Positions 43,965 to 59,117 of a stretch of 64,000 bases of DNA are shown one piece after another; position 1 is the first letter of the stretch, and each line of letters opens with the position of its first letter. This stretch comes from Thermomonas sp. (GTDB lineage: Bacteria; Pseudomonadota; Gammaproteobacteria; Xanthomonadales; Xanthomonadaceae), in contig JADKKV010000005.1 of NCBI GenBank assembly GCA_016720345.1, positions 1-64,000 of the forward strand. The letters run 5' to 3'. The translations under genes and the position numbers were made by a program. The notes under the pieces are model-generated. The model was given only the letters and a program-made list of their open reading frames with translations. It did not search any database and was not told the DNA's origin.

Positions 43965-44884
43965 GCATCCATTACGGCGTCATCGGCACCGGCCCGGTCG
44001 GGCGCGTGTTCGCCGGGCTGCTGCGCCAGGCCGGGCATCGGGTCAGCGTGCTCGCCCATCGCGCGCAGACCCAGCAGATCCTGCAGCGCCGGCCGGTGGT
44101 GGTGAAGGGCAAGCTCGAGGCCTATGCGCAGCTGCAGGACGTGGTGCTGGAAACCGGCGACTTCGTGCGCGCCGCGCCCGACGTGGTCCTGCTCTGCACC
44201 AAGAGCGTGGACAGCGAGCACGTGCTGCGCACCCTGCGCGAGCACGCGCCGAAGCCAGGCATGCTGTTCGTGTCCTGCCAGAACGGCATCGGCACCGAAC
44301 GCGTGATCGAAGCCGTGTTCGGCCGCGAGCGCGCGCTGCGGATCGTGCTCAACATGGGCTGCGACGTGTCCTGCGGCAACGAGGTGATCGTCACCTTCTG
44401 CACCACCCACGTGATGGGCCGCTCGCCGCACGTGGACCCGGCGCGGATCGCGGCGATCGCCGCCGACCTCAAGGACTCCGGGCTGCCGCTGGAACTGCGC
44501 GACGACTGGCGCGAGGACGTGTTCCGCAAGGCGCTGCTGAACGCCTCGCTCGGCAGCATGTGCGCGGTGACGCGCCACTGCATGGGCTGCGTGATGGGCC
44601 AGCCGGAGGCGCGCGCGATGGTCGAGGACATGCTCCGCGAAGGCATGGCGATCTGCAGCGCCGAGGGCATCGAGCTCGGGCCCGACTTCCTCGGCTTCGC
44701 GATGCACTACCTCGACCAGGGTGGCGAGCACCGGCCCTCGATCCTGGTCGACGTCGAGAAGGGCAAGGTCACCGAGAACGAATTCCACTGCGGCGAGCTG
44801 GCCCGGCTCGCGCGCAAGCACGGCGTGGCGGCACCGACGATCCACTTCGTCGACAAGGTGCTGCGTTGCGCGGAGAACGTCTGA
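43961..44884 (+). CDS. ApbA/PanE-type 2-dehydropantoate 2-reductase-like protein
   Basis: The 307-residue NADP-dependent reductase has the N-terminal Rossmann motif IGTGPVGRVFAGLLRQAGH, the conserved lysine in LLCTKSVDSEH, and the C-terminal catalytic segment DDWREDVFRKALLNASLGSMCAVT. The family reduces 2-oxo acids such as ketopantoate. Inside an aromatic-degradation operon its substrate is unclear, and it may act on a hydroxyacyl or oxoacyl intermediate or support CoA supply. The GTG start at 43961 overlaps the previous stop (GTGA). Confidence 0.8.
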   Translation: MSIHYGVIGTGPVGRVFAGLLRQAGHRVSVLAHRAQTQQILQRRPVVVKGKLEAYAQLQDVVLETGDFVRAAPDVVLLCTKSVDSEHVLRTLREHAPKPGMLFVSCQNGIGTERVIEAVFGRERALRIVLNMGCDVSCGNEVIVTFCTTHVMGRSPHVDPARIAAIAADLKDSGLPLELRDDWREDVFRKALLNASLGSMCAVTRHCMGCVMGQPEARAMVEDMLREGMAICSAEGIELGPDFLGFAMHYLDQGGEHRPSILVDVEKGKVTENEFHCGELARLARKHGVAAPTIHFVDKVLRCAENV

Positions 44885-46893
44885 TGCGCGGCTTCCGCAA
44901 CGTTGCCGTGGTCGGCGCCGGCACCATGGGCGCGGCGATCGCGCAGCATTTCCTGATGAAGGGCCTGCAGGTGCACCTGGCCGATGCCAACCAGGCCGGG
45001 CTGGCGCGTGGCCAGGGCCTGGTCGCGGCCTCGCTGGACGAGGCGGTGGCGCGCCGCCTGCTCGATGCCGACGGCCGCGCGGCGACGCTGGCGCGGCTGC
45101 ATCCGACCACCGACCTGGCCGACCTTGCCGGTGTCGACCTGGTGGTCGAGGCGGTGTTCGAGGATCTCGACGTCAAGCGCGCGTTGTTCGCGCAGTTGGA
45201 AGGCATCGTGCGCACGGATTGCGTGCTGGCGACCAACACCTCGTCGTTCCGGGTCGGCGATGTCGCTGCCGGTCTCGCGCATCCCGGCCGCGTGCTCGGC
45301 ACGCACTACTTCTATCACGCCGCCAAGAACAAGCTGGTCGAGCTGATCGCGGGCGAACGCACCGACGCCGCGCTGCTGGCCGAAGTCGAAGCCTTCTACG
45401 CCGGACTCGGCAAGACGCCGATCCGTACCGCGGATGCGCCCGGCTTCGCGGTCAACCGCTTCTTCGTGCCCTGGCTCAACGAGGCGGTGCGCGTCTATGC
45501 CGAGGGTCTCGGCAGCATCCCGACCATCGACGCCGTGGCGCGTGCAGCCTTCGGCGTCGGCATGGGCCCGTTCGCGCTGATGAACGCCACCGGCGTGCCG
45601 ATCGCGCAGCACGCGGCCGAGGGACTGGCGGCCAAGCTCGGCGACTTTTACGCGCCGGCGCCACGGCTGATCGCGCAGGTCGCGGCACGCCAGGACTGGA
45701 ACCTCGACGACCACGCGAGCGTGCACGGTGGACAGGAGCAACCGGAGGCGATCCGCGAACGCCTGCTCGCTGCCGCACTCGGTTGCGCCGCGGCGCTGGT
45801 CAGCGAGGGCGTGTGCAGCGCCACCGACACCGACCTCGGTGCGCGTTCCGGCCTGCGCTGGCCGCGCGGTCCGTTCGAGTTGATGGCGGCGATCGGCCAG
45901 GACGCCATCGCGGGCATGGTCGGCGCGCTGTTCGCCCGCTGGGGCATGCCGCTTCCGACGCTGCCATTCGCAAGCAGCACGCCGATTGCACTCGAGTGGG
46001 TGCAGGCGGAGGTCCACGGCGACACCGGCGTGATCGTGTTCAACCTGCCCGACCGCATGAACGCGCTCGGCGAAGCGGTGATGGCGCAACTGGATGCCGC
46101 ATGGACGCGGCTCGAGGCCGACCCGGCGGTGCGCCGCGTGTTCCTGTGCGGCCGCGGCAAGGCCTTCGTCGCCGGCGCCGACATCAGCTTCTTCCTCGAC
46201 GCCATCGACGGCCACGACCTCGATCGCATCCACGCCTTCACCGTGCGCGGGCAGCAGACGCTCGACCGGATCGCCGCGTCGGCCAAGCCGAGCGTGGCGC
46301 TGCTCGATGGCCTGGCCTTCGGTGGCGGACTCGAACTGGCGCTGGCCTGCCGGTATCGGCTGGGCACGCGCAACACCCTGCTGGCCCTGCCCGAGACCGG
46401 CATCGGCATCTACCCCGGGCTTGGCGGCACCCAGCGCAGCGCGCGCCTGCTCGGCGTCGGCGTGGCCAAGTCGCTGATCGCCACCGGCCGCCGGCTCGAT
46501 GCCGGCAAGGCACTGGACCTCGGGCTGGTCGACGCCGTCATCGAACCACCGCAGCGCTACGCCGATCTCGCGCAGTTGCCGTTGCCGACGCCGCAGTCCG
46601 GTCGCCAGCCGCAGCCGGGACTGGAAGCGGCGTTCGCCGACTATCGCGGCGAGATCGATGCGGCGACGCTGGCGCAGCCGCAGCTCGCGCCGTTCGCGCG
46701 CGAGCTTGCGCGCAAGGCGCCGATCGCGCTCGCCACCGCGATGCGGCTGGTCGACGACGGCCGCGTGCTGCCGCTGGCGGACGCGCTGCAGCTCGAACTC
46801 GACGGCCTGCACGCGATCTTCGCCACCCACGACGCCCGCGCCGGGCTCGCCAGCGTGCTCGACGGCTCGCGCCCGAGCTACGCCGGACACTGA
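44884..46893 (+). CDS. Bifunctional 3-hydroxyacyl-CoA dehydrogenase/enoyl-CoA hydratase
   Basis: The 669-residue fusion carries the dehydrogenase first: NAD loop VAVVGAGTMGAAIAQHF, NTSSFRVGDVA, GTHYFYHAAKNKLVE and FAVNRFFVPWLNE, residues 1-370. The crotonase domain follows (oxyanion motifs GRGKAFVAGADISFF and DGLAFGGGLELALACRY; catalytic EIGIYPGLGG-type segment, residues 385-669). This is the reverse of FadB order. It should hydrate and oxidise the enoyl/hydroxyacyl-CoAs leading from 3-hydroxypimelyl-CoA to 3-oxopimelyl-CoA, and possibly crotonyl-CoA. Starts with a TGATG overlap. Confidence 0.9.
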   Translation: MRGFRNVAVVGAGTMGAAIAQHFLMKGLQVHLADANQAGLARGQGLVAASLDEAVARRLLDADGRAATLARLHPTTDLADLAGVDLVVEAVFEDLDVKRALFAQLEGIVRTDCVLATNTSSFRVGDVAAGLAHPGRVLGTHYFYHAAKNKLVELIAGERTDAALLAEVEAFYAGLGKTPIRTADAPGFAVNRFFVPWLNEAVRVYAEGLGSIPTIDAVARAAFGVGMGPFALMNATGVPIAQHAAEGLAAKLGDFYAPAPRLIAQVAARQDWNLDDHASVHGGQEQPEAIRERLLAAALGCAAALVSEGVCSATDTDLGARSGLRWPRGPFELMAAIGQDAIAGMVGALFARWGMPLPTLPFASSTPIALEWVQAEVHGDTGVIVFNLPDRMNALGEAVMAQLDAAWTRLEADPAVRRVFLCGRGKAFVAGADISFFLDAIDGHDLDRIHAFTVRGQQTLDRIAASAKPSVALLDGLAFGGGLELALACRYRLGTRNTLLALPETGIGIYPGLGGTQRSARLLGVGVAKSLIATGRRLDAGKALDLGLVDAVIEPPQRYADLAQLPLPTPQSGRQPQPGLEAAFADYRGEIDAATLAQPQLAPFARELARKAPIALATAMRLVDDGRVLPLADALQLELDGLHAIFATHDARAGLASVLDGSRPSYAGH

Positions 46894-46904: not shown

Positions 46905-48167
46905 ATGACCGCTTCCGCCACCGGCTTCCGCAACGCCCACGGCGTGGGTGCCTGCTTCGACGACGTGTACCTGCTTGCCGGTGCACGCACCCCGTTCGGC
47001 AAGTTCTGCGGCGCGCTGTCGACGGTGTCGCCGACCGACCTCGGCATCCACGCGGCACGCGCGGCGATCGCGGCGGCCGGCGTCGATGCCGGCGCGATCG
47101 ACCAGACCATCGTCGCCAACATCGGCCAGGCCAGCGCCGACGCCTTCTTCCTGCCCCGCCATATCGGCCTCTACGCCGGCGCGCCGGAGGCGAGCACCGC
47201 GCTGCTGGTGCAACGCATCTGCGGCTCCGGGCTGGAAGTCCTGGCGCAGGCCGCGGAGCAGGTCGCGCTGGGCAAGGCGCAGCTGGTGCTGGGGGTCGGC
47301 ACCGACACCATGAGCCGCTTCCCGCTCGCCTCCTACACCGCGCGCCAGGGCTTCGCGCTCGGCAAGCCGGAGTTCACCGACCTGTTGTGGGAAGCGCTCG
47401 ACGACACCGCCGCGGTGCCGATGGGCCGCACCGCCGACAACCTCGCCGGGCGCTACGGTCTCACCCGCGCCGAGGTCGATGGCTTCGCCCACCAGAGCCA
47501 GGTGCGCTGCGCCGCGGCGCGGGCCGCCGGCTTCTTCGAGGGCGAACTCGCGATGGTGCCCGGCCAGGGCGCCTTCGAAGCCGCGACGCTGAAGCCGCGC
47601 CGCTTCCGCTGCAAGGACAAGGCCGGGCTGGGCGCCGACGAACATCCGCGCACAACCACGCCGGAAGCGCTGGCGAACTTGCCGCACGTGTTCAGCGAAG
47701 CCGGTCCGACCACCGCCGGTTCCGCCTCGGGCATCGTCGATGGTGCCGCCGCGCTGCTGGTCGCATCCGGCGATTTCGTGCGCGCGCACGGACTCGCCCC
47801 GGTCGCGCGGCTGGTCGCGCACGCCTCGGCCGGGGTGGCGCCGGCCTACATGGGCATCGGCCCGGTGCCGGCGGTGCGCGCCACCCTCGCCGCCAGCGGC
47901 ATGACGGCGGACGACATCGGCCGCTTCGAGATCAACGAGGCCTTCGCCGCGCAGTGCCTGGCGGTTGCGCGCGAACTCGGCATCGACGAAGCGCGGCTCA
48001 ACGTCAACGGCGGCGCCATCGCGATCGGCCACCCGCTCGGCGCCACCGGCGTGCGCCTGGCGCTGACCCTGGCGCGAACGCTGGCCCGCGACGACGCCGG
48101 CTTCGGCATCGCCTCGGCCTGCATCGGTGGAGGCCAGGGCACCGCCCTGCTGCTGCAGCGATGCTGA
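46905..48167 (+). CDS. Thiolase (acetyl-CoA acyltransferase), first copy
   Basis: The 420-residue thiolase has the nucleophilic cysteine in VQRICGSGLE, the histidine in NGGAIAIGHPLGATG and the second cysteine in SACIGGGQGTALLL. It cleaves a 3-oxoacyl-CoA with CoA, most likely 3-oxopimelyl-CoA to glutaryl-CoA plus acetyl-CoA, or acetoacetyl-CoA. It follows the fusion gene by 11 bases. The N-terminal extension of about 20 residues is longer than usual; ATG 46905 is the first start in the gap. Confidence 0.92.
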   Translation: MTASATGFRNAHGVGACFDDVYLLAGARTPFGKFCGALSTVSPTDLGIHAARAAIAAAGVDAGAIDQTIVANIGQASADAFFLPRHIGLYAGAPEASTALLVQRICGSGLEVLAQAAEQVALGKAQLVLGVGTDTMSRFPLASYTARQGFALGKPEFTDLLWEALDDTAAVPMGRTADNLAGRYGLTRAEVDGFAHQSQVRCAAARAAGFFEGELAMVPGQGAFEAATLKPRRFRCKDKAGLGADEHPRTTTPEALANLPHVFSEAGPTTAGSASGIVDGAAALLVASGDFVRAHGLAPVARLVAHASAGVAPAYMGIGPVPAVRATLAASGMTADDIGRFEINEAFAAQCLAVARELGIDEARLNVNGGAIAIGHPLGATGVRLALTLARTLARDDAGFGIASACIGGGQGTALLLQRC

Positions 48168-48913
48168 GCCGCTACCGCCAGCGCGTCGCGCTTGTCACCG
48201 GCGCCGGCCGCGGCATCGGCGCGGCGATCGCGCGCCGCCTGCACGATGAAGGCGCCAGCGTGGTGCTGGCCGACCGCGATGGCGATGCCGCCGCCGCGCT
48301 CGCCGCGGAACTCGGTGGCGGGCGCGTGCTCGCGGTCGCGGTGGATGTCACCGCGCGCGCCGGACTCGAGGCGCTGATGGAGCGCATCAAGAGCGATCTC
48401 GGCGGTCTCGATCTGCTGGTCAACAACGCCGGCATCATCCGCGACGGCTGGCTCTCCAGGCTCAGCGAAGCCGACTGGGACAGCGTGCTGGCGGTCAACC
48501 TGAAGGGCCCGTTCCTGTGCTGCCAGGCCGCCCTGCCGCTGCTGCGCGAACGCGCGGGCAGCGCGATCGTCAACATCGCGTCGCGTTCGTGGCTGGGCAA
48601 CCCGGGACAGGCGAACTACGCGGCCAGCAAGGGCGGCGTGGTCAGCCTGACCCGCACGCTGGCACTGGAACTGGCGCGCGACGGCATCCGCGTCAACGCG
48701 GTGGCACCGGGCCTGATCGACACCCCGATGACCCAGGCGATGCCGGGCGAGGCGCGCGAGCGCCTGCTGCGGATGCAGCCAAGCGGGCAGATGGGCGCGC
48801 CCGCCGACATCGCCGCGGCGGTCGCCTTCCTCGGCTCCGCCGATGCCGCCTTCATCAGCGGCCAGGTGCTGCACGTCGACGGCGGCAAGAGCTGCGGCCT
48901 GCTCGGACTCTGA
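48161..48913 (+). CDS. Short-chain dehydrogenase/reductase (FabG-like)
   Basis: The 250-residue SDR has the cofactor motif VTGAGRGIGAAIA, the NNAG motif, the active-site Ser (SRSWLGNPGQ), and the YAASKGG catalytic pair. It ends with VLHVDGGKS. It probably oxidises or reduces a hydroxy/oxoacyl-CoA of the pathway; the substrate is unassigned. It overlaps the thiolase stop by 7 bases. Confidence 0.9.
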   Translation: MLSRYRQRVALVTGAGRGIGAAIARRLHDEGASVVLADRDGDAAAALAAELGGGRVLAVAVDVTARAGLEALMERIKSDLGGLDLLVNNAGIIRDGWLSRLSEADWDSVLAVNLKGPFLCCQAALPLLRERAGSAIVNIASRSWLGNPGQANYAASKGGVVSLTRTLALELARDGIRVNAVAPGLIDTPMTQAMPGEARERLLRMQPSGQMGAPADIAAAVAFLGSADAAFISGQVLHVDGGKSCGLLGL

Positions 48914-48915
48914 CC

Positions 48916-50070
48916 ATGACCGCGCTGCCGCCGCCCGCCTCGACGCCCACCGCCCGCATCGTCGCGGCGCGGCGCACGCCGATCGGGCGCAGCCATGCCG
49001 ACAGCGGTGCCCTGCGCGACATGCGCGCCGACGAACTGCTGGCGCGGCTGATCGCGGAAGTGACGCGCACGCTGCCCGATGCCGGCGCACTCGACGACGT
49101 ACTGGTCGGCTGCGTCGGCCAACACCTGGAGCAGGGCAAGAACATCGCGCGCCTGGCCAGCCTGCTCGCCGGGCTGCCGGCCAGCGTGCCCGGGGTCACC
49201 TTCAACCGCCTGTGCGCCTCCAGCCTGGAAGCCTTCAACACCGCGTCCATGCGCATCGCTGGTGGCCAGGACCAGCTGCTGCTGGCCGGCGGCATCGAAC
49301 ACATGCAGCACGTGCCGATGGCGGCGGCGGTCGACTACCACCCCGACCTGCTGGCGCGGCCGCCATTCCCGTTCAACAACATGGGCCTGGCCGCCGAATG
49401 GCTGGCCGTGCGCGATGGCATCGGCCGTGCCACCCAGGACGCCTGGGCCCTGGAAAGCCACCGCCGCGCCTGCCACGCACGCGCGCACGGCCGCTTCCGG
49501 CGCGAGATGCTGGCAATCGACGGCATCGCCGACGACCAGTGCCCGCGCGCGGATGCCAGCCGCGACGCGCTGGCCGCGCTCAGGCCGGCCTTCCGCGAAG
49601 ACGGCAGCGTCACCGCCGGCAATGCCTCGCCGCTGTCCGACGGCGCCAGCCTGGTCCTGCTCGCCTCGGCGCAGGCCTGCGTGCGCGACGGCCTGCGCGC
49701 GCGCGCGGAGGTGCTGGGCAGCGTGGTGGTCGGGCTGGCGCCGGAGGCGATGGGCGACGGCCCGGTGCTGGCGATCCGCAAGCTGTTGGCGCGCTTCGGG
49801 CTGGCCACGGGCGACATCGACCGCTACGAGATCAACGAGGCCTTCGCGGCGCAGGTGGTCTCCAACGTGCGCGCGCTCGCGCTGGTGGCCGAACGCGTCA
49901 ATCCGGATGGCGGCGCGATCGCGCTTGGCCATCCGCTGGGGGCCACCGGCACCCGCCTGGTCACCACCCTGCTGCACGGCCTCGAAGCCGACGATGGCGA
50001 GCTCGGCATCGCCGCGTTGTGCGTTGGCCACGGCCAGGGCGTGGCCACCCTGATCCGGAGACTGCACTGA
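48916..50070 (+). CDS. Thiolase, second copy
   Basis: The 384-residue thiolase has its cysteine in FNRLCASSLEA, the histidine in GGAIALGHPLGATG, and the second cysteine in ALCVGHGQGVATL. The last motif departs from the usual CxGGGxG and resembles the oxoadipyl-CoA thiolase type (CxGxGQG). That fits a dicarboxylic oxoacyl-CoA such as 3-oxopimelyl-CoA. This is an inference from one motif. Confidence 0.9.
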   Translation: MTALPPPASTPTARIVAARRTPIGRSHADSGALRDMRADELLARLIAEVTRTLPDAGALDDVLVGCVGQHLEQGKNIARLASLLAGLPASVPGVTFNRLCASSLEAFNTASMRIAGGQDQLLLAGGIEHMQHVPMAAAVDYHPDLLARPPFPFNNMGLAAEWLAVRDGIGRATQDAWALESHRRACHARAHGRFRREMLAIDGIADDQCPRADASRDALAALRPAFREDGSVTAGNASPLSDGASLVLLASAQACVRDGLRARAEVLGSVVVGLAPEAMGDGPVLAIRKLLARFGLATGDIDRYEINEAFAAQVVSNVRALALVAERVNPDGGAIALGHPLGATGTRLVTTLLHGLEADDGELGIAALCVGHGQGVATLIRRLH

Positions 50071-50573
50071 TGGATGCCGCTGCGCCGACCAGCCCCACCG
50101 CCACCGAAACCCTGGCGCTGCAGGTCAACGGCCAGCGCCACGTGCGCGCGGTGCCCCCCGGCACCAGCGTGCTCGACTTCCTGCGCGAACAGCTCGGCCT
50201 GACCGGCAGCAAGCGTGGCTGCGACCTTGGCGAATGCGGCTGTTGCGCGGTGCTGGTCGACGGCCGGCCGATGCTGTCCTGCCTGCTGCCGGCGGCGGAC
50301 ATGGTGGAGGCCGAAATCACCACCATCGAGGGCATCGGCTGCGGCAACGCCCTGCATCCGCTGCAGCAGGCGATGATCGACCACGGCGCGATCCAGTGCG
50401 GCTACTGCACGCCGGCAATGGTGCTGAACGGGGTCGCCCTGTTCGCCGCCGATCCGCACCCGGACGAACGCGCGCTGCAGACCGCGATCGCCGCCACCAC
50501 CTGCCGCTGCACCGGCTACAACGCCATCCGCAACGCCTTCCGCGCGGTCGCCGCCGGCGGGGAGGCAGGATGA
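50070..50573 (+). CDS. hcrC: 4-hydroxybenzoyl-CoA reductase, small [2Fe-2S] subunit
   Basis: The 167-residue protein carries the plant-type cluster ligands Cys51, Cys56, Cys59 and Cys71 (RGCDLGECGCCAVL), and the second cluster ligands Cys110, Cys113, Cys145 and Cys147 (CGYCTPAM, CRCTGY). This is the standard small subunit of xanthine-oxidase-family enzymes. It begins with a TGATG overlap and is directly followed by the large and FAD subunits. The assignment to HCR rather than another hydroxylase comes from the FAD subunit and the operon. Confidence 0.92.
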   Translation: MDAAAPTSPTATETLALQVNGQRHVRAVPPGTSVLDFLREQLGLTGSKRGCDLGECGCCAVLVDGRPMLSCLLPAADMVEAEITTIEGIGCGNALHPLQQAMIDHGAIQCGYCTPAMVLNGVALFAADPHPDERALQTAIAATTCRCTGYNAIRNAFRAVAAGGEAG

Positions 50574-52957
50574 AGCCGTACCGCATCGTCGGCCAGCCGC
50601 AGGCGCAACTCGACGCCCGCGACAAGGTCACCGGCCGCGCCCGCTACACCGACGACCTGCGCGTGCCCAACCCGCTGCACGCCGCGATCCTGCGTTCGCC
50701 GCATGCCAGTGCGCGCATCCTGCGCATCGACACCCGGCGCGCACTGGCCCTGCCCGGCGTGCGCGCGGTGCTCACCGGCGCCGACTTCGAGCGCACGTTC
50801 GGGGTACTGCCGATCAGCAAGGACGAACCGGCGCTGGCGCGCGAGCGGGTGCGCTACGTCGGCGAACCGGTGGCCGCGGTCGCGGCCGAGACTGCGGAGA
50901 TCGCGGCGCAGGCACTGGCGCTGGTCGCGGTCGAGTACGCGCCGACGCCGCCGGTGCTCGACGCCCGCCACGCACTCAAGCCCACCGACGACCCGCTGCA
51001 CCCGGAGCTGAAGCGCGCGGACAACCTGCACAAGCAGGTCGAGCAGCGCTTCGGCGATCCGGAGGCGGCGTTCGCGGCGGCGCCGATCGTGATCGAGAAG
51101 CGCTTCCGCTACGCGGCGGTCACCCACGCCTTCACCGAACCGCATGCGGTGCAGGTCGAGATCGACGGCCGCGGCAACCTCACCGTCTACAGCGCCACCC
51201 AGGTGCCGCATTACGTGCACCTGGCGCTGGCCGAGGTGCTGGGCATCGACGAGCACCGCGTGCGCGTGGTCAAGCCGCATCTTGGCGGCGGCTTCGGCGG
51301 CAAGAGCGATCCGTTCCCGCACGAGATGATCGCCGCCAAGCTGGCGCTGGTCAGCGGCCGCAACGTGCGCCTGCGCTTCTCGCGCGAGGACGTGTTCTTC
51401 AGCCACCACGGCCGCCACCCGACCCAGCTGACGATGAAGCTCGGCTTCGACCCGGCCCGCGGCATCACCGCGCTGACCGGCGACATCCTGATCGATGGCG
51501 GCGCCTACGGCAGCTTCGGGGTGGTCACCACCTATTACAACGGGGTGCTGCTGCAGGGCCCGTACCCGGTGCCGAACTTCGGCTTCCGCTGCCGCCGCCT
51601 GTACACCAACACGCCGATGTGCGGCGCCATGCGCGGCCACGGCGGGGTCAACCCGCGCTTCGCCGCCGAGGTGCTGATGGACATGGCCCTGCACCAGGCC
51701 GGGCTCGATCCCTGCCAGGGCCGCATCGACCTGCTGCATCGCGCGAACACGCTGACCGTCAACGAATTCCGGATCACCTCGGCTGGCCTCAAGCGCGGCC
51801 TCGAGGAAGCGATGCACCGCTCCGGCTGGCGCGAGAAACACGGCAAGCTGCCGTTCGGAAAAGGCATCGGCGTTGCCTGCGGCTTCTTCATCAGCGGCAG
51901 CGCCCTGCCGATCCACTGGAACGAGCGCCCCGGCAGCACGGTGCGGATGACGCTGGAGTTCGACGGCGCGATCACCGTGTATTCGGGCGCCTCCGACATC
52001 GGCCAGGGCAGCGACACCGTGCTGGCGATGATGGCGGCGGAAGTGCTGGGCGTGGACCTGGACCAGGTCAAGGTGGTCGCCGCCGACACCCGCCTGACCC
52101 CGGTCGACCTCGGCAGCTACAGCTCGCGGGTCACCTTCATGGCCGGCAATGCCGCGCGCAACGCGGCGATCCGCATGCGCCGCCTGCTGGTCGCCGGCGC
52201 CTGCCGCAAGCTCGGACTGGACGAACCCGTTTACCCGGCGCCGGAGCCGCCCGCGGACTTCTTCCGCCAGGGCCAGCGCGCACCCGATTTCGAGGCCGAC
52301 GACCTCGGCGCGAATCCGGATTACCGCGATGGCTTCGCGTTCGGCGGCGGCCGCATCCGCCACCTGGCCAGCGGCGCGGACGTCGCCTGGCTGGATGCGG
52401 TGCATGCGGCCATCGAAGGCCCCGGCATCCTGCAGACCGTCGGCAACTACCGTTCACCGAAACTGGGCGGCACGTTCAAGGGCGCCGGCGCCGGGCTGTC
52501 CCCGGCCTACAGCTTCACCGCGTTCATCGTCGAGGTCACGGTCGACCCGGAGACCGGCCACGTCCGCGTCGACAAGGCCACCTGCGCGCACGACTGCGGC
52601 TTCGCGCTGAACCCGTTGGCGGTGCGCGGGCAGATCGAGGGCTGCTTCCACATGGGCATGGGCCAGGCCTTGATGGAGGAAGTGCTGCACGAGGGCGGCG
52701 CGGTGCAGAACGCCGGCTTCCTCGAATACAAGATCCCGTCGCCGTTCGAGCAGCCGGAGATCGACATCGTGCTGTGCGACAGCGACGAGAACGAAGGCCC
52801 GTTCGGCGCCAAGGAAGCCGGCGAGGGTCCGCTTGCGCCGGTGATCCCGGCGATCGCCAATGCGATCTTCGACGCGGTCGGGGTGCGCCTGGCCGAAGTC
52901 CCGCTGCGGCCCGACCGGGTGCTGGCGGCGCTGCGCAAGCAGGCGGGCGTGGCATGA
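50570..52957 (+). CDS. hcrA: 4-hydroxybenzoyl-CoA reductase, molybdenum large subunit
   Basis: The 795-residue molybdopterin subunit has HLGGGFGGKSDPF, GAMRGHGGVNPRFAAE, ASDIGQGSDTVLAMMA, and the active-site glutamate segment FGAKEAGEGPLAP. It removes the 4-hydroxyl group of 4-hydroxybenzoyl-CoA to yield benzoyl-CoA, using low-potential ferredoxin electrons. The molybdenum cofactor is probably the cytosine dinucleotide, which fits mocA at the end of the cluster. It starts in an ATGA overlap with hcrC. Confidence 0.93.
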   Translation: MKPYRIVGQPQAQLDARDKVTGRARYTDDLRVPNPLHAAILRSPHASARILRIDTRRALALPGVRAVLTGADFERTFGVLPISKDEPALARERVRYVGEPVAAVAAETAEIAAQALALVAVEYAPTPPVLDARHALKPTDDPLHPELKRADNLHKQVEQRFGDPEAAFAAAPIVIEKRFRYAAVTHAFTEPHAVQVEIDGRGNLTVYSATQVPHYVHLALAEVLGIDEHRVRVVKPHLGGGFGGKSDPFPHEMIAAKLALVSGRNVRLRFSREDVFFSHHGRHPTQLTMKLGFDPARGITALTGDILIDGGAYGSFGVVTTYYNGVLLQGPYPVPNFGFRCRRLYTNTPMCGAMRGHGGVNPRFAAEVLMDMALHQAGLDPCQGRIDLLHRANTLTVNEFRITSAGLKRGLEEAMHRSGWREKHGKLPFGKGIGVACGFFISGSALPIHWNERPGSTVRMTLEFDGAITVYSGASDIGQGSDTVLAMMAAEVLGVDLDQVKVVAADTRLTPVDLGSYSSRVTFMAGNAARNAAIRMRRLLVAGACRKLGLDEPVYPAPEPPADFFRQGQRAPDFEADDLGANPDYRDGFAFGGGRIRHLASGADVAWLDAVHAAIEGPGILQTVGNYRSPKLGGTFKGAGAGLSPAYSFTAFIVEVTVDPETGHVRVDKATCAHDCGFALNPLAVRGQIEGCFHMGMGQALMEEVLHEGGAVQNAGFLEYKIPSPFEQPEIDIVLCDSDENEGPFGAKEAGEGPLAPVIPAIANAIFDAVGVRLAEVPLRPDRVLAALRKQAGVA

Positions 52958-53925
52958 CCCCCGCATTCGACCTGCAGCGCCCGCGCAGCCTGGACGCACT
53001 GCATGCACTGCTGGACGGGCTCGCGCGGCGCCAGCAGCGCTTTGCGATCAGCGCCGGCGGCACCGACCTGGTGCCGCAACTCAAGCTTGGCCTGGCCACG
53101 CCGGAGGTGCTGGTGTCGCTGGGTGCGATCCCGGCCCTGCGCGGGATCACGCGCGAGCCGGACGGCCGGGTGCGGATCGGCGCGATGACGCCGCTGGCCA
53201 CGATCATTGCCGACCCGCTGCTGCATGCGGTCGCGCCGGTGCTGGGCGAGGCCGCCGCGCGCGTGGCCTCGGCGCCGATCCGCGAGCGCGCCACCCTGGG
53301 CGGCAACGTGCTGGCCGACCACCGCTGCAACTTCTTCAACCAGAGCCCGCTCAACCGCGCCGCGCATGGCCCCTGCTTCAAGGCCGGCGGCGACGTCTGC
53401 CACATCGTCAAGTCGGCGGTGCGCGGCCAGCTGCCGCAATGCCAGGCACGCATCGTCTCCGACACCACGCCGGCACTGCTGGTGCTGGATGCCGAACTGC
53501 AGATGCACTCGCCGCGCGGCGAACGCCGCATCGCACTGGCGGACTTCCATCTTGGCGACGGCATCGAACGCCACCGGCTGGCCGCCGACGAGGTGCTGCT
53601 GGCGATCACGCTGCCTTCGCGGCCCGGGCGGGTCGCCGCGTACGAAAAACTGGCCGCGCGCGCCAACCTCGACTTCCCCTCGCTGGGCATCGCCCTCGCC
53701 CGCGACGGCGACCGTCTGCACGCGGCGATGACCGGCATCGGCGTGCGCCCGGCCAGCGCGCGCGCGGCGCTTGCGGACGGCGCGCTGGCGACGCTTGGCG
53801 AAAGCCTCGCCAGCGCCAATCCGGTGTACGACCAGGACGGATTCCCGCGCGATTACCGCAAGCGCATGATCGCGGCATACGTGCGCAAGGCCGCGCGCCG
53901 GATCGGAGGTGATGCATGGACGTGA
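52954..53925 (+). CDS. hcrB: 4-hydroxybenzoyl-CoA reductase, FAD and [4Fe-4S] subunit
   Basis: The 323-residue FAD-binding subunit (ISAGGTDLVPQLKLG, ASAPIRERATLGGNV) has an insertion with four cysteines: Cys125, Cys141, Cys149 and Cys163 (HRCNFFNQS, HGPCFKAGGDVCHIV, LPQCQA). This loop holds the extra [4Fe-4S] cluster unique to 4-hydroxybenzoyl-CoA reductase in the xanthine oxidase family. It lets electrons flow inward from ferredoxin. It starts with an ATGA overlap with hcrA. Confidence 0.95.
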   Translation: MTPAFDLQRPRSLDALHALLDGLARRQQRFAISAGGTDLVPQLKLGLATPEVLVSLGAIPALRGITREPDGRVRIGAMTPLATIIADPLLHAVAPVLGEAAARVASAPIRERATLGGNVLADHRCNFFNQSPLNRAAHGPCFKAGGDVCHIVKSAVRGQLPQCQARIVSDTTPALLVLDAELQMHSPRGERRIALADFHLGDGIERHRLAADEVLLAITLPSRPGRVAAYEKLAARANLDFPSLGIALARDGDRLHAAMTGIGVRPASARAALADGALATLGESLASANPVYDQDGFPRDYRKRMIAAYVRKAARRIGGDAWT

Positions 53926-55100
53926 AACAGGTGATGCGCGAGTACTTCCTGGACCTCGATGCCGCGGCGAAGGATCCGGCGCGCAAGGTCGCGTGGTGCA
54001 CCTCGGTCGGTCCCGCCGAAATCCTGCGTGCGATGGGCTTCGCGGTGTATTTCCCGGAGAACCACGGCGCCATGCTCGGCGCCACCCGCGTCGCCGGCGA
54101 CACCATCCCGGTCGCCAACGCGAACGGCTATTCGCCGGAGATCTGCTCCTACCTGACCGCCGACGTCGGCGCCTGCATGAAGGGCATCACCCCACTGACC
54201 CGCGCCTACGGGATCGAGGCGGTGCCGCGCCCCGACGTGCTGGTCTACTGCACCAACCAGTGCAAGGACGTGATGCACTGGTTCGCCTGGTACGCGCGGC
54301 AGTGGAACGTGCCATTGCTTGGCGTGCACACGCCGAACCACCTGCCCGAGGTCGAGCCCGAGCACATCGCCGATGTCGCCGCCCAGTACCGGCGGCTGAT
54401 CACGCAGCTTGAGGCGGTCACCGGCGAGCGCCTGGACCCGCAGGCGCTGCGGCAGGCGGTGGCGCGCTCGAAGCAGGCGACCGACCTGTGGGCCGAGGTA
54501 CTGGCCACCGCGATGGCGCGCCCGGCACCGCTGAGCTTCTTCGATGGCGCGGTCTACATGGGGCCGATCGTGGTCCTGCGCGGCACCCAGGTGGCCACCG
54601 ATTACTACCGCGCGCTGCTCGACGAGATGCGCGCGCGCGTCGCCGCGTCCCGGGCCGCGGTGCCCGGCGAACGCCTGCGGCTGTACTGGGAAGGGATGCC
54701 GGTGTGGGGCCGGCTGCGGCAGCTGTCCGACCTGCTGGCGCGCAACCGCACCTGCGTGGTCGCCTCGACGTATTGCAACTCCTGGATCTTCTCCGACTTC
54801 GACCCGGATGCACCGCTGGAGAGCATGGCGCGCGCCTACCTGTCGATCTTCATCAACCGCGACGACGCCTACAAGGAACGCTACATCGCGCGGCTGGCGG
54901 AGGAATTCGGCATCGACGGGGTGGTCTACCACGCCGCCCGCACCTGCCCCAACAACACCAACAGCCACTACAACCTGCCGCGGCGCCTGCAGGCCGCCGG
55001 GGTGCCGGGGATCGTGATGGACGGCGACCTCAACGACCTGCGCTGCTTCTCCGACGAGCAGAGCACCACCCTGCTCGAAGCCTTCATGGAGACCCTGTGA
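53916..55100 (+). CDS. Unassigned HgdB/BcrB-family reductase subunit
   Basis: The 394-residue protein belongs to the 2-hydroxyacyl-CoA dehydratase D-component/benzoyl-CoA reductase family but is not part of the bcrCBAD set. Possible cluster cysteines are Cys28 (WCTSVG), Cys77 and Cys87 (EICSYLTADVGACMKG), Cys112 and Cys116 (YCTNQC), Cys280, Cys287, Cys344 (ARTCPNNTN) and Cys377 (LRCFSD). Only one such subunit is present, so it may work as a homodimer, like the double-cubane-cluster proteins or E. coli YjiM. It overlaps hcrB by 10 bases and its own ATPase follows. The reaction is unknown. Confidence 0.85.
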   Translation: MDVKQVMREYFLDLDAAAKDPARKVAWCTSVGPAEILRAMGFAVYFPENHGAMLGATRVAGDTIPVANANGYSPEICSYLTADVGACMKGITPLTRAYGIEAVPRPDVLVYCTNQCKDVMHWFAWYARQWNVPLLGVHTPNHLPEVEPEHIADVAAQYRRLITQLEAVTGERLDPQALRQAVARSKQATDLWAEVLATAMARPAPLSFFDGAVYMGPIVVLRGTQVATDYYRALLDEMRARVAASRAAVPGERLRLYWEGMPVWGRLRQLSDLLARNRTCVVASTYCNSWIFSDFDPDAPLESMARAYLSIFINRDDAYKERYIARLAEEFGIDGVVYHAARTCPNNTNSHYNLPRRLQAAGVPGIVMDGDLNDLRCFSDEQSTTLLEAFMETL

Positions 55101-56008
55101 GCACCGCGCTTGCCAGCCATGCCGAAGCCGCGGCCGCGCCCGCGGATGCCAGTCCACGCGTCTACTGGGGCGTGGATTGCGGCAGCGCCGAGATCAAGGT
55201 GGCCGCGGTCGACGCCGATGGCCAGGTGCTGCTGACCCGCAAGCAGCGCACCCTGTTCCCGCTGGCCGAGCACGTCCACCGCGCGCTGGCCGGCGCCCCC
55301 GGCGCGGCGTCGCCGCTGCATGAGGACGACCGCGCGGCGTTGCCGGAAGGCGGCGTGCCGCGGCTGCGCGCGGGCCAGCGGGTGTACGCCACCGGCTACG
55401 GGCGCAACCACATCCCGTTCGTGCATGGCGCCTGCACCGAGATCAAGGCGCATTACCTGGGCGTGCAGCACCAGCTCGGCCTGGCCGAGGACTACACGAT
55501 CATCGACATCGGCGGCCAGGACGCCAAGGTGATCGGCGCCACCCCGAGCCGGGTCGGCCAGTTCGCGATCAACCGCAAGTGCGCGGCCGGCACCGGTGCC
55601 TACATCGAGGAACTGGCGCACCGCCTGGAGGTGCCGATGCAGTCGCTGCCGGCGCTGGCGGCCGCGCACGACCAGGAGCTCACCCTCAACAGCTACTGCA
55701 CGGTGTTCTCCGGGCAGGAAGTGATCAAGCTGCTGATGCACGGCGAGCGGGTCGAGAACCTGGTGCACGCGCTGTACCGCTCGGTGGTCAAGCGGGTGCT
55801 GGAGATGACCGCGATCGATACCCCCACGCTGGTGTTCTCCGGCGGGGTGATGGCCCACCACCAGAACCTGATGCCGCTGTTCGGCGAACGCTTCGAACGC
55901 GGCGTGCACACCATCCTTGCCCCGAATGCGCAGTTCTGCGGCGCGATCGGGGCCGCGATCCACGGCTACAACGAGGAGAAGAAAGATGGCTTTCCGCATC
56001 ACCAGTGA
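55097..56008 (+). CDS. BadF/HgdC-type activating ATPase for the orphan reductase
   Basis: The 303-residue ASKHA ATPase has WGVDCGSAEIKVAAVD, ATGYGRNHIPF, EIKAHYLG, IIDIGGQDAKVI, NRKCAAGTGAYIEE, and LNSYCTVFSGQEVI. The last two contain the cysteines that hold the inter-subunit [4Fe-4S] cluster. It is a single-gene, presumably homodimeric activator like HgdC or YjiL, with a low-complexity insertion at residues 45-85. It starts by GTGA overlap with the reductase subunit and should donate ATP-energised electrons to it. Confidence 0.88.
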   Translation: MSTALASHAEAAAAPADASPRVYWGVDCGSAEIKVAAVDADGQVLLTRKQRTLFPLAEHVHRALAGAPGAASPLHEDDRAALPEGGVPRLRAGQRVYATGYGRNHIPFVHGACTEIKAHYLGVQHQLGLAEDYTIIDIGGQDAKVIGATPSRVGQFAINRKCAAGTGAYIEELAHRLEVPMQSLPALAAAHDQELTLNSYCTVFSGQEVIKLLMHGERVENLVHALYRSVVKRVLEMTAIDTPTLVFSGGVMAHHQNLMPLFGERFERGVHTILAPNAQFCGAIGAAIHGYNEEKKDGFPHHQ

Positions 56009-56276
56009 GTGCAACCTGTGCGACGCCTGCGTGCCCGAATGCCCGAACGAGGCGATCACCGCCGGCAGCCGCATCTACGTGATCGACCCGATGAAGTGCA
56101 CCGAGTGCGTCGGCTTCTTCGACGAGGCGCAGTGCGCGGCGGTGTGCCCGCAGGAATGCTGCGAGCCGGATCCGGACCGCCCCGAGGACAACCAGGCGCT
56201 GCTGCAGCGCGCGCGGGCGCTGCACCCGGACGAGGAGTTCACGGACGACGCGCCCTCGCGCCACGCAACCAACTGA
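55986..56276 (+). CDS. fdx: Low-potential 2[4Fe-4S] ferredoxin
   Basis: The 96-residue ferredoxin has cluster I ligands Cys9, Cys12, Cys15 and Cys19 (CNLCDACVPECP). Cluster II has Cys38 and Cys41, then an 8-residue insertion before Cys50 and Cys54 (CTECVGFFDEAQCAAVCP). The insertion and C-terminal helix are typical of the Chromatium-type ferredoxin that feeds Thauera benzoyl-CoA reductase. ATG 55986, preceded by GAGGAGAA, overlaps the previous gene by 23 bases; an earlier ATG at 55917 lies out of the family pattern. Confidence 0.93.
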   Translation: MAFRITSECNLCDACVPECPNEAITAGSRIYVIDPMKCTECVGFFDEAQCAAVCPQECCEPDPDRPEDNQALLQRARALHPDEEFTDDAPSRHATN

Positions 56277-56298: not shown

Positions 56299-58176
56299 AT
56301 GAACCAGGCCACCGCCAGCCCCGCCGCGATCGAACCCGACGACGCCTGCCTGCTCGCCGAGATCACCCTGAAGTTCGCCGGCGACTCCGGCGACGGCATC
56401 CAGCTGGCCGGGCAGCAGTTCGCGCAACTGGCCAGCGCCGCCGGCGAGCGGGTGCGCACCCTGCCCGATTTCCCGGCGGAGATCCGCTCGCCGGTGGGTA
56501 CCCTGGGCGGGGTCTCGGGCTTCCAGGTGCGCGCCGGCGGCGAACAGGTGCTCACCCCCGGCGACCGCCTCGACCTGCTGGTGGCGATGAACCCCGCCGC
56601 GCTGCGCAGCAACCTCGACAAGCTCAAGCCCGGCGCGATCGTGCTGGTCAACGAGGATGCCTTCGGCGCCGCCAACCTGGGCAAGGCCGGGTTCGCCGCC
56701 AACCCGCTGGAAGACGGCTCGCTGCGCGCGTACCGGGTGTTCTCGGTGCCGATGGGCATGCTCACCCGCAACGCGCTGAAGGGGCTGCCGCTGTCCACCC
56801 GCGAGAAGGACCGCAGCCGCAATTTCTTCGCGCTGGGCCTGATCTGCTGGCTGTTCCCGCGCCCGCTGGAGGACGTCGAGGCCTTCATCGAGCGCCGCTT
56901 CGCCGCCAACCCGGAACTGGCCGAAGCCAACCGCCGTGCCTTCCGCACCGGCTGGAACTATGGCGAGACCGCGGAGTTCTTCGTCAGCCCGCTGCGGGTG
57001 GCCGGCAGCGAGCGGCTGCGCGAACCCGGGGTGTACCGCTTCGTCACCGGCAATGCCGCGGTCGCCAAGGGCATGGTCGCCGCCGCCCGCCGCGCGGGCC
57101 TGCCGCTGCTGCTGGGCGGCTACCCGATCACCCCGGCCACCGAGGTGATGCAGGAACTCGCGCGCCTGCGCGAGCCGGACGTGCGCATGTTCCAGGCCGA
57201 GGACGAGATCGCCGCGATCGGCAGCGCGATCGGCGCCAGCTTCGCCGGCGCGCTGGGCGCCACCAGCACCTCCGGGCCCGGGCTGTCGCTGATGGGCGAA
57301 TTCCTCAACCTCGCGGTGATCGCGGAGCTGCCGCTGGTGGTGGTCGACGTGATGCGCGCCGGTCCCTCCACCGGGATCCCGACCAAGACCGAGCAGGCCG
57401 ACCTGCTGCAGGCCCTGCACGGCCGCCACGGTGAATCGCCGATGCCGGTGCTGGCCTGCGCCAGCCCGGCGGACTGCTACCACGCCACCGTCGAGGCCTG
57501 CCGGATCGCGCTGCGTTACATGACCCCGGTGATCGTGCTGTCCGACCTCTCGCTGTCCGGCAGCGCCGAGGTCTGGCGCGAGCCGCACGTCGACGAACTG
57601 GCGCCGTTCCATGTGCACCGGGTGACCGACCCGGACGGTTTCCAGCCCTACCGGCGCGACCCGGAAACGCTGGCACGGCCGTGGGCGCTGCCCGGCACCC
57701 CGGGGCTTGAACACGTGATCGGCGGCCTGGAGAAGGCCGGCGACAGCGGCGCAGTCTGCTACGAGCCGGAAAACCACGAGGCGATGGTGCAACTGCGCGC
57801 GGACAAGATCGACCGCATCGCCCAGGACTATCCCGCCACCGAGATCCATGGCGACCCGGATGCCCGCTTGCTGCTGCTGGGCTGGGGCAGCACCCACGGC
57901 GCCATCCGCGAGGCCACCGACCAGCTGCGCGCCGCCGGGCGGCCGGTCGCCTGCCTGCACCTGCGCCACCTCAACCCGCTGCCGCGCGACCTTGCCGAGG
58001 TGCTGCGCCGGCACCCGCAGGTGGCCGTGCTGGAGAACAACTCCGGCCAGCTGTGGCGGCACCTGCGCGCCAGCTGCCTGCTCGACCTCAAGCGCCTGGG
58101 CAAGGTCCAGGGCACCGCCTTCCACGTGCCGGAAATCATCGCCTACGCCGAATCGCTGCTGGAGACGCCCGCATGA
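56299..58176 (+). CDS. korA: 2-oxoglutarate:ferredoxin oxidoreductase, alpha (gamma-alpha fused) subunit
   Basis: The 625-residue protein has an N-terminal gamma domain (LKFAGDSGDGIQLAGQQFA..., DFPAEIRSPVGTLGGVSGFQV, residues 20-210). The alpha domain follows (GYPITPATEVMQELARL, then EDEIAAIGSAIGASFAGA and TSTSGPGLSLMGE). It oxidises a 2-oxoacid with CoA and reduces ferredoxin. In Thauera KorAB regenerates the ferredoxin used by benzoyl-CoA reductase from 2-oxoglutarate; the same role is inferred here from its place directly after the ferredoxin gene. Confidence 0.93.
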   Translation: MNQATASPAAIEPDDACLLAEITLKFAGDSGDGIQLAGQQFAQLASAAGERVRTLPDFPAEIRSPVGTLGGVSGFQVRAGGEQVLTPGDRLDLLVAMNPAALRSNLDKLKPGAIVLVNEDAFGAANLGKAGFAANPLEDGSLRAYRVFSVPMGMLTRNALKGLPLSTREKDRSRNFFALGLICWLFPRPLEDVEAFIERRFAANPELAEANRRAFRTGWNYGETAEFFVSPLRVAGSERLREPGVYRFVTGNAAVAKGMVAAARRAGLPLLLGGYPITPATEVMQELARLREPDVRMFQAEDEIAAIGSAIGASFAGALGATSTSGPGLSLMGEFLNLAVIAELPLVVVDVMRAGPSTGIPTKTEQADLLQALHGRHGESPMPVLACASPADCYHATVEACRIALRYMTPVIVLSDLSLSGSAEVWREPHVDELAPFHVHRVTDPDGFQPYRRDPETLARPWALPGTPGLEHVIGGLEKAGDSGAVCYEPENHEAMVQLRADKIDRIAQDYPATEIHGDPDARLLLLGWGSTHGAIREATDQLRAAGRPVACLHLRHLNPLPRDLAEVLRRHPQVAVLENNSGQLWRHLRASCLLDLKRLGKVQGTAFHVPEIIAYAESLLETPA

Positions 58177-59117
58177 GCGAGACCGCCACCGCCCTCGCCG
58201 AACAGGCAGACGACCGCCGCCAGGACTTCCTGTCCGCGACCACCCCGCGCTGGTGCCCGGGTTGCGGCTGCTTCGCGGTGCTGAAATCGCTGACCGCGAC
58301 CTATGCGGCGCTGGGCATCCCGCGCGAGAAGCTGCTGACCATTTCCGGGATCGGCTGCACCTCGCGCCTGCCCTACTACACCCGCACCTTCGGCTTCCAT
58401 ACCGTGCACGGGCGCGCGCCGACGGTGGCGATGGGGGCCAAGCTGGCCAACCCGGAGCTGTCGGTGTGGCTGATCTCCGGCGATGGCGATGCGATGGCGA
58501 TCGGCGGCAACCACACCATGCACCTGCTGCGGCGCAATCCCGACATCAAGATGCTGATGCTCAACAACCAGATCTACGGGCTGACCAAGGGCCAGGCATC
58601 GCCGACCAGCCCGGCGGGACTGGAAACCAAGTCGACTCCGTTCGGCGTGCAGGACAACCCGATCAACCCGGTCAACCTGGCGCTGGCCTGCGGCGCCACC
58701 TTCGTCGCCCGCGTCCCGGACACCAACAACGCGATGATGGAAGAAGTGTTCGCGGCCGCGCACGCGCACCGCGGGGTCGCGTTCGTCGAGGTCCTGCTGA
58801 ACTGCGTCACCTTCCACGACGGCGCCTACGAACAGATCACCAGCAAGGCCACCCGCGACGACCACAGCGTGCGCCTGCGCGCGGGCCAGCCCCTGCGCTA
58901 CGGCAAGGACGGCAACCGGGTGCTGGTGCATGCGCACGGCCGGATCGAGGCGCAGGTGCTGGACGACGGCCAACCGCTGCCCGCCAACGCGGTGGTCCAC
59001 GACCCCACCGATCCCGGCCTGGCCCAGCAACTGGCGTTGATGGCGCTGCCGGAGCTGCCCTGCGCGCTCGGGATCTTCCGCCAGGTGCAGGCGCCGGTGT
59101 ACGGTCAGGCCTGCTGA
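58173..59117 (+). CDS. korB: 2-oxoglutarate:ferredoxin oxidoreductase, beta subunit
   Basis: The 314-residue thiamine-diphosphate subunit has the cluster cysteines in RWCPGCGCFAVL and GIGCTSRLPYY, the cofactor motif ISGDGDAMAIGGNHTMHLLR...LNNQIYGLTKGQ, and a further cysteine in VLLNCVTFHDG. It starts with an ATGA overlap with korA. With KorA it makes the low-potential ferredoxin reductant. Confidence 0.94.
   Translation: MSETATALAEQADDRRQDFLSATTPRWCPGCGCFAVLKSLTATYAALGIPREKLLTISGIGCTSRLPYYTRTFGFHTVHGRAPTVAMGAKLANPELSVWLISGDGDAMAIGGNHTMHLLRRNPDIKMLMLNNQIYGLTKGQASPTSPAGLETKSTPFGVQDNPINPVNLALACGATFVARVPDTNNAMMEEVFAAAHAHRGVAFVEVLLNCVTFHDGAYEQITSKATRDDHSVRLRAGQPLRYGKDGNRVLVHAHGRIEAQVLDDGQPLPANAVVHDPTDPGLAQQLALMALPELPCALGIFRQVQAPVYGQAC

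Follow-up and report, generated by a model that had tools for sequence, protein, structure and literature searches.

A lone HadB-type D-component subunit with its own activase beside benzoyl-CoA reductase genes of Thermomonas sp.: a candidate aryllactoyl-CoA dehydratase

The window analyzed here is a stretch of 64,000 nucleotides from Thermomonas sp. (assembly GCA_016720345.1, contig JADKKV010000005.1, positions 1 to 64,000), which carries genes for a benzoyl-CoA reductase (BCR; bcrCBAD), genes resembling those of a 4-hydroxybenzoyl-CoA reductase (HCR), and an orphan gene pair that we call P0001 and P0002 (Table 1). P0001 is a lone alpha-type (HadB/BcrB-type) subunit of the HGD-D family (Pfam PF06050, 232 bits; cut-off 28.4), and P0002 is an HgdC-type activase that matches both the acyl-CoA dehydratase activase model TIGR00241 (145 bits; cut-off 125.4) and PF01869. 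The initial annotation had described one D-component-type subunit (394 aa, nine cysteines) and one activator (303 aa) with both cluster cysteines, placed between hcrB and the ferredoxin gene in addition to bcrCBAD, and this description holds: the two cluster cysteines that each activase subunit should bear are present as C162 and C201 (presumed ligands), which are cysteines in 24 of 24 sequences, and each frame runs into the next, hcrB into the start of P0001, P0001 into the GTG start of P0002, and P0002 into the start of the ferredoxin gene. These overlapping frames suggest that all four genes lie on one transcript. The source genome (2.66 Mb in 7 contigs, completeness listed as 100%) has three HGD-D matches, namely bcrC, bcrB, and P0001; one HGD-D gene stands in the unit, and the HGD-D search of the genome returned no dedicated beta subunit for it. 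A scan of a genome collection found 23 orphan loci in 22 genomes, all titled metagenome-assembled, with proteins 61-82% identical, and the activase gene adjoins the orphan in every one of them. The pairing is not due to chance, because 23 loci elsewhere retain it. The earlier view, in which a D-component stands alone, is served by an ATP-driven activase of its own, and is linked to aromatic metabolism, is therefore upheld, and what follows concerns the kind of reaction that the pair may catalyze.

Among the NCBIfam models, P0001 scored highest with HadB (NF052455; 212 bits, cut-off 750), followed by BcrB (132.5 bits, cut-off 486.55), BzdO (85 bits, cut-off 448.6), and DCCP (NF040772; 65 bits, cut-off 350), all of these values being below the cut-offs of the respective equivalogs. 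At an E value of 0.001, three PDB sequences were matched, HadB (168 bits), MbdO (107 bits), and BzdO (81 bits), and DCCP was absent from them; identity to BcrB is 27-31%. An AlphaFold2 model of P0001, built on a 23-sequence alignment, reached a mean predicted local distance difference test score (pLDDT) of 83 and a predicted template-modeling (TM) score (pTM) of 0.85, with low confidence at residues 50-52 and a local score of only about 58-59 for the ten-residue blocks containing C344 and C377. With this model as the query, Foldseek placed HadB on top (TM score 0.86-0.88), ahead of the BCR alpha-type subunits MbdO and BzdO (0.83-0.84), DCCP (0.75-0.78), and beta-type subunits (0.69-0.73), so the HGD-D fold is of the HadB/alpha type, as in 2-hydroxyacyl-CoA dehydratases. 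A quick tree was built from 39 proteins, 11 of the 23 orphan sequences among them, and drew a program warning of long branches. It put the orphan clade in the alpha-type half (starred, 100) and outside BcrB and MbdO; HadB was its companion at support 85 (drawn open), together with other dehydratase-like alpha subunits from two-gene systems, and the divergent sequence L123 was nested in the clade. The alpha subunits of these two-gene relatives, of which six were found, also scored HadB first in all three cases scanned. Sequence, predicted fold, and tree thus put P0001 in the dehydratase branch of the HGD-D family.

The active-site residues agree with this placement. The presumed cluster ligands are C77, C116, and C344, and S30 and E48 align with the positions that we take to be Ser37 and Glu55 of HadB, a numbering that agrees with the chain positions in the alignment of P0001 with the PDB sequence; the three [4Fe-4S] cysteines and the Ser and Glu near the substrate that characterize a dehydratase are all found. 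P0001 and HadB have S30, E48, N49, and W290 in common, where BcrB has P, E, V/I, and G, and positions 30, 32, 49, and 290 of P0001 are unlike both BcrB and MbdO. For BzdO, excerpts of PMC11971306 served as the reference for ligands and catalytic residues, and in the sequence alignment Gly32 of P0001 takes the place of BzdO Trp46 (numbering of PMC11971306). The initial annotation had called for structure prediction with ligand mapping; the predicted fold is HadB-like, alignments give C77/C116/C344 as the presumed cluster site, and the rank of HadB above the BCR alpha-type subunits speaks against the reductase that it had in mind.

Six cysteines, C28, C77, C116, C287, C344, and C377, are invariant in 23 of 23 orphan sequences, three beyond the need of the usual cluster. 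Of the alpha-type sequences compared that lie outside the orphan family, none has a cysteine at 377, L123 alone has one at 287, and L123 and L130-L132 alone have one at 28. C77, C116, C287, and C344 align with cysteine columns of BzdN and DCCP, whose ligand role is itself taken from the alignment, whereas C28 lies one residue off a DCCP/BzdN cysteine and C377 has no counterpart there. A second cubane in P0001 is possible but unproven. The 43% relative L123 (227-1465), whose gene is followed by an acetyl-CoA hydrolase/transferase-type gene, keeps C28, C287, and C344 and has no equivalents of C77, C116, and C377. The HGD-D gene of L130 (6586-7788) stands right after a large nonribosomal peptide synthetase gene and before a phosphopantetheinyl transferase gene; it has no bcrC-like neighbor in the fetched stretch, and the genes of L131 and L132 are alike in this.

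Table 1. Genes of the orphan unit and its surroundings (positions in the window unless a locus is given)
Feature	Coordinates	Strand	Assignment	Basis or remark
P0001	53916..55100	+	Lone alpha-type HGD-D subunit	See text
P0002	55097..56008	+	HgdC-type activase	GTG start
bcrC	37516..38676	+	BCR subunit	512 bits (cut-off 421); sole beta-type HGD-D found in genome
bcrB	38673..39944	+	BCR subunit	714 bits (cut-off 487)
bcrA	39955..41343	+	BCR activase subunit	556 bits, slightly below cut-off 578
bcrD	41356..42207	+	BCR activase subunit	339 bits (cut-off 313)
CoA ligase	42207..43964	+	AMP-forming acyl-CoA ligase, proposed for aryllactate (or cinnamate)	Family scan and homologues
PanE-type reductase	43961..44884	+	PanE/ApbA-family 2-oxoacid reductase, proposed (R)-aryllactate dehydrogenase	
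Fusion gene	44884..46893	+	3-Hydroxyacyl-CoA dehydrogenase and enoyl-CoA hydratase, proposed side-chain beta-oxidation	
Thiolase 1	46905..48167	+	Thiolase	Start codon approximate
SDR	48164..48913	+	FabG-like short-chain dehydrogenase/reductase	Start codon approximate
Thiolase 2	48916..50070	+	Thiolase	
hcrC-like	50070..50573	+	Gamma subunit	TIGR03193, 116.6 bits with shortened query (cut-off 257.8); start inferred from frame
hcrA-like	50570..52957	+	Mo subunit, divergent from canonical HCR	TIGR03194, 819 bits, below cut-off 994.55
hcrB-like	52954..53925	+	FAD subunit	TIGR03195, 198.8 bits, below cut-off 404.55
Ferredoxin	55986..56276	+	YfhL-type, presumed donor to activase and BCR	NF033683, 101.5 bits (cut-off 86)
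KorA-like	56299..58176	+	2-Oxoacid:ferredoxin oxidoreductase subunit, presumed ferredoxin reduction	PF01855, PF01558
KorB-like	58173..59117	+	Second subunit	Named from position and homologues (tblastn conservation)
Decarboxylase-type gene	32047-33678		Indolepyruvate/phenylpyruvate decarboxylase type	TIGR03394, 796 bits (cut-off 554.5); just upstream of ring-cleavage genes had, oah, and dch
ACT-domain-pair/PanE loci	L019 6676-8142, L109 3243-4710, L110 6789-8262, L111 6227-7619, L112 8050-9449		PF19571 gene adjoining PanE-type gene	Five genomes

The company that the orphan keeps was examined in flanks of up to 10 kb, shorter at contig ends, with thresholds of E 1e-80 for the CoA ligase, 1e-15 for the PanE-type reductase, 1e-150 for HcrA, and 1e-20 for PaaK. 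The initial annotation had called for a neighborhood survey of the pair beside hcr genes, and this setting was found in part of the loci: hcrB lies directly upstream in 15 of the 23 loci, and the fetched flank of the other 8 holds no hcr. In five of these eight (L019, L022-L024, and L035), a CoA ligase gene is directly upstream instead; one more (L031) has the cassette of ligase, PanE-type, beta-oxidation, and SDR genes, and two (L033 and L034) have neither an upstream hcrB nor ligase nor cassette. Genome-wide, the ligase (47-88% identical) and the PanE-type reductase are each found in 21 of 22 orphan genomes, the latter at 37-92% identity in 16 and at only 30-32% in five; both are missing only in G466. 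On the deltaproteobacterial contig L108, the order bcrAD, ligase, PanE, 3-hydroxyacyl-CoA dehydrogenase/enoyl-CoA hydratase, thiolase, and SDR is repeated. Such constant company of a ligase and a 2-oxoacid reductase fits a 2-hydroxyacyl-CoA dehydratase.

All five genomes whose PanE type is only 30-32% identical have a gene with a pair of ACT domains (PF19571) next to the PanE-type gene. The ligase is there as well in L019 and L109, and the two genes lie away from the orphan in L110-L112; no ACT-domain neighbor of PanE was observed in L108. A PanE-family gene beside the P0002 homologue in L022 was not counted, as it is not that genome's PanE-type match at the threshold. The activase gene of L034 overlaps with one for an aminotransferase. 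The orphan loci L012 (the same place as L035) and L024 are preceded by U32-peptidase and ABC-transporter genes and followed by genes of the amidase and TonB-receptor types.

The HGD-D complement of these genomes is likewise small. In 16 of the 22 there are exactly three matches, namely the orphan and two closely placed genes with the spacing of bcrC-bcrB, and G472 and G485 have such a pair together with additional matches, which gives 18 of 22; the pairs were called by this spacing and not each compared individually with BcrC and BcrB. The remaining four genomes hold pieces (G469 and G474), the orphan with bcrC and with bcrB cut at a contig end (G478), or, as assembled, the orphan alone (G477). 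No dedicated beta partner is evident in the 22 orphan genomes, although G485 has two further, weaker HGD-D matches that may include one. Orphan and pair lie on separate contigs in 11 of the 18 genomes, for which assembly breaks may account in part.

The reading that we favor, with a confidence that is evenly balanced, is that P0001 and P0002 form a radical (R)-2-hydroxyacyl-CoA dehydratase that does without a dedicated beta subunit, likeliest as a homodimer, and acts on (4-hydroxy)phenyllactoyl-CoA; reaction, substrate, direction, homodimer, and cluster type are all inferred. The genes for a 2-oxoacid reductase, a CoA ligase, the dehydratase, a hydratase/dehydrogenase, and a thiolase together cover every step by which a 2-oxo acid would become an acyl-CoA with two carbons fewer, and this chain adjoins HCR and BCR; therefore, the acid should be an aryl one. 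Further signs in favor are the cassette of L108, the aminotransferase gene of L034, the ACT-domain-pair genes beside PanE-type genes, and a search for a PaaK-type phenylacetate-CoA ligase, which gave no match at the threshold in six of 14 genomes, one of them the window's own. Tyrosine or phenylalanine would be transaminated to the arylpyruvate, which the PanE-type enzyme would reduce to (R)-aryllactate and the AMP-forming ligase would convert to aryllactoyl-CoA. P0002, reduced by ferredoxin and driven by ATP, would then pass an electron to the [4Fe-4S] cluster held by C77, C116, and C344 of P0001, where a ketyl radical would form and water would leave to give cinnamoyl- or p-coumaroyl-CoA. 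Hydratase/dehydrogenase and thiolase would yield (4-hydroxy)benzoyl-CoA, which would pass to HCR and on to BCR.

Several observations weigh against this reading. (i) In excerpts of PMC11574389, component D of the 2-hydroxyacyl-CoA dehydratases is an alpha-beta heterodimer, a feature tested for and not found in P0001; P0001 is for this reason not filed as a full member of that class, although it should work like one. (ii) A plain HadB-type site leaves the three additional invariant cysteines unexplained. (iii) The acids used by the ligase and the PanE-type enzyme could be different ones, the substrate of the ligase not being fixed by family scans, and since a genome search found a single PanE-family gene in the source genome, that gene could serve pantothenate. 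(iv) The decarboxylase-type gene at 32047-33678 points to a phenylacetaldehyde branch. (v) L033 has no ligase or hcr near the orphan, the aminotransferase of L034 falls below every listed cut-off, and in G472, G473, and G484 the 30-32% PanE-type gene is not close to the orphan and is possibly unrelated. (vi) Of the 14 genomes searched for PaaK, six have a match above the cut-off of the model and two more a match below that cut-off. The lack of hcr around L031 was at one time taken as a sign of a phenylalanine-only route, which was dropped, because its genome has a canonical HCR elsewhere.

The main rival, which we regard as unlikely while granting it an appreciable chance, is that P0001 is a dehydratase alpha subunit that borrows BcrC as its beta subunit, so that a P0001-BcrC heterodimer would be fed by P0002. 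It would restore the heterodimer described for component D (PMC11574389, in part), BcrC is the only beta-type HGD-D protein found in the source genome, and a bcrC-bcrB-like pair accompanies the orphan in 18 of 22 genomes; BCR is also found without the orphan, in L120-L122, whose BcrB is 68-70% identical. However, a pathway that ends at benzoyl-CoA explains the co-occurrence equally well, orphan and pair are on different contigs in 11 of those 18 genomes, and BCR has an activase pair of its own. An apparent BcrC-BcrB fusion in G484 (an 825-aa open frame), which would weigh against the sharing of BcrC, was rejected when translation revealed a stop between the two.

To a bolder version of the favored dehydratase we assign only a small chance: a homodimer with an expanded cluster, in which C77/C116/C344 would hold one cubane and C28/C287/C377 would hold a second or play an active-site role, so that the protein would bridge DCCP and the dehydratases and serve as the entry enzyme of an unrecognized respiratory route that leads aromatic amino acids via aryllactate to benzoyl-CoA.

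The initial annotation had proposed a second ATP-driven reductase in aromatic metabolism, that is, a BCR-like enzyme that reduces or reductively dehydroxylates a substituted benzoyl-CoA or that feeds HCR with low-potential electrons. The presence of hcrB just before the orphan at 15 of 23 loci, the shared ferredoxin and KorAB-like genes, and the 27-31% identity to BcrB would suit it, but we give it only a slim chance, as P0001 groups with dehydratase alpha subunits by sequence, fold, and tree, differs from BcrB and MbdO at positions 30, 32, 49, and 290, and has no dedicated beta subunit, the holder of the double cubane in BzdNO. Against it, too, are the 8 of 23 loci without hcr in the fetched flank, among them the five with the orphan beside the CoA ligase and the hcr-free cassette of L031, though the genome of the latter has a canonical HCR. 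A DCCP-like homodimer that handles a small molecule or maintains a cofactor outside catabolism is improbable, for although it would account for one D-component gene with one activase gene, for six invariant cysteines per subunit (the number needed for a double cubane), and for the alignment of C287 with a cysteine of DCCP and BzdN, the DCCP profile reaches just 65 bits of the 350 at its cut-off, C28 and C377 do not coincide with DCCP cysteines, and the constant company is a CoA ligase and mostly also a PanE-type reductase and a bcrCB-like pair.

The dehydratase reading can also be set beside the known systems. P0001 resembles HadBC (PDB 3o3m-3o3o) in fold, in the three cluster cysteines, in the Ser37/Glu55 equivalents, and in having an activase of the same family, but it has no HadC-type partner, carries three additional invariant cysteines, and counts a CoA ligase among its neighbors, in a setting of BCR and HCR genes of proteobacteria. 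FldABC/FldI of Clostridium sporogenes, compared by description only and from partial sources, is alike in the proposed reaction from aryllactyl-CoA to arylacrylyl-CoA, whereas FldBC has two D-component subunits and belongs to a fermentation pathway, and here the product would be oxidized to benzoyl-CoA. BcrCBAD, BzdNOPQ, and MbdONPQ share the HGD-D fold and an ATP-driven activase with P0001/P0002; unlike the orphan unit with its one HGD-D gene, class I benzoyl-CoA reductases have two different catalytic subunits, and the orphan lies outside the BcrB/MbdO branch, with Gly32 where BzdO has Trp46. DCCP with DCCP-R has the same gene content of one D-component and one activase and the likeness of six invariant cysteines, but four of these lie on DCCP/BzdN cysteine columns, and no DCCP match appeared at E 0.001.

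The HCR-like neighbors are themselves divergent. HCR carries an extra [4Fe-4S] insert in its FAD subunit, and C125, C141, C149, and C163 of the HcrB-like protein, cysteines in 16 of 16 sequences, are consistent with it; similarity and these four residues are the grounds for the name hcr, the window HcrA being below the equivalog cut-off of TIGR03194. This model was above its cut-off in none of ten genomes with window-type HcrA (the window's and nine others) and, in a second set, in one of seven, namely G480, the genome of L031, which has no window-type HcrA and bears the canonical HCR (1169 bits) on another contig; the best matches in G469, G472, G473, and G484 reached 780-889 bits. Window-type HcrA occurs in 19 of 22 orphan genomes, in three of them at only 43-44% identity. 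The window-type hcrCAB genes may encode a divergent HCR that possibly replaces the canonical one.

Among the window's kin, the orphan was found in 3 of 99 genomes searched, the window's included; at E 1e-30 it was absent from the 24 other genomes of the genus and from 34 others of the family, and a class-wide scan found it in one of 369 genomes, the window's own. A plasmid collection gave 15 records, the best at only 29.0% identity. The island is probably an acquisition. Among the 52 genomes in the class to which G482 belongs, a match above 60% identity occurred only in G482, and the 43% relative L123 belongs to G531; seven genomes of that class had only BcrB-like matches of 27-32%. In the three of these seven that were compared (L120-L122), the BcrB-like genes are 68-70% identical to the window BcrB and no orphan match accompanies them; therefore, BCR exists without the orphan. 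Contig 13 of G472 carries two ligase-orphan-activase blocks in opposite orientation (L022 and L023), a duplication or an assembly artefact.

In the excerpts of the open-licence literature searched, nothing was found on a gene pair of the P0001/P0002 type, nor any aryllactate-to-benzoyl-CoA route in a respiring organism with genes shown, in line with the failure of the initial annotation to match the pair to a described pathway step. Fermenters are described as converting arylpyruvate via (R)-aryllactate to aryllactyl-CoA, which undergoes radical dehydration (PMC5897657 and PMC11574389, in part), while the respiratory routes found in those excerpts pass through phenylacetate or phenylacetaldehyde. 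The nearest account is in available parts of a 2026 benzene paper, where a hypothetical route includes a phenyllactyl-CoA dehydratase for which candidate genes are named (PMC13416013), and those of PMC5109826 state that Desulfococcus multivorans uses phenyllactate for growth and assign genes to the step from phenyllactate to phenylpyruvate. If the favored reading is true, a one-subunit dehydratase would test how the HGD-D family evolved, whether a second subunit is needed for electron storage, and what the extra cysteines do. The pathway would link a fermentation reaction with respiratory ring degradation, it would let tyrosine and phenylalanine reach benzoyl-CoA without passing through phenylacetate, and it would be a testable prediction for several uncultured lineages.

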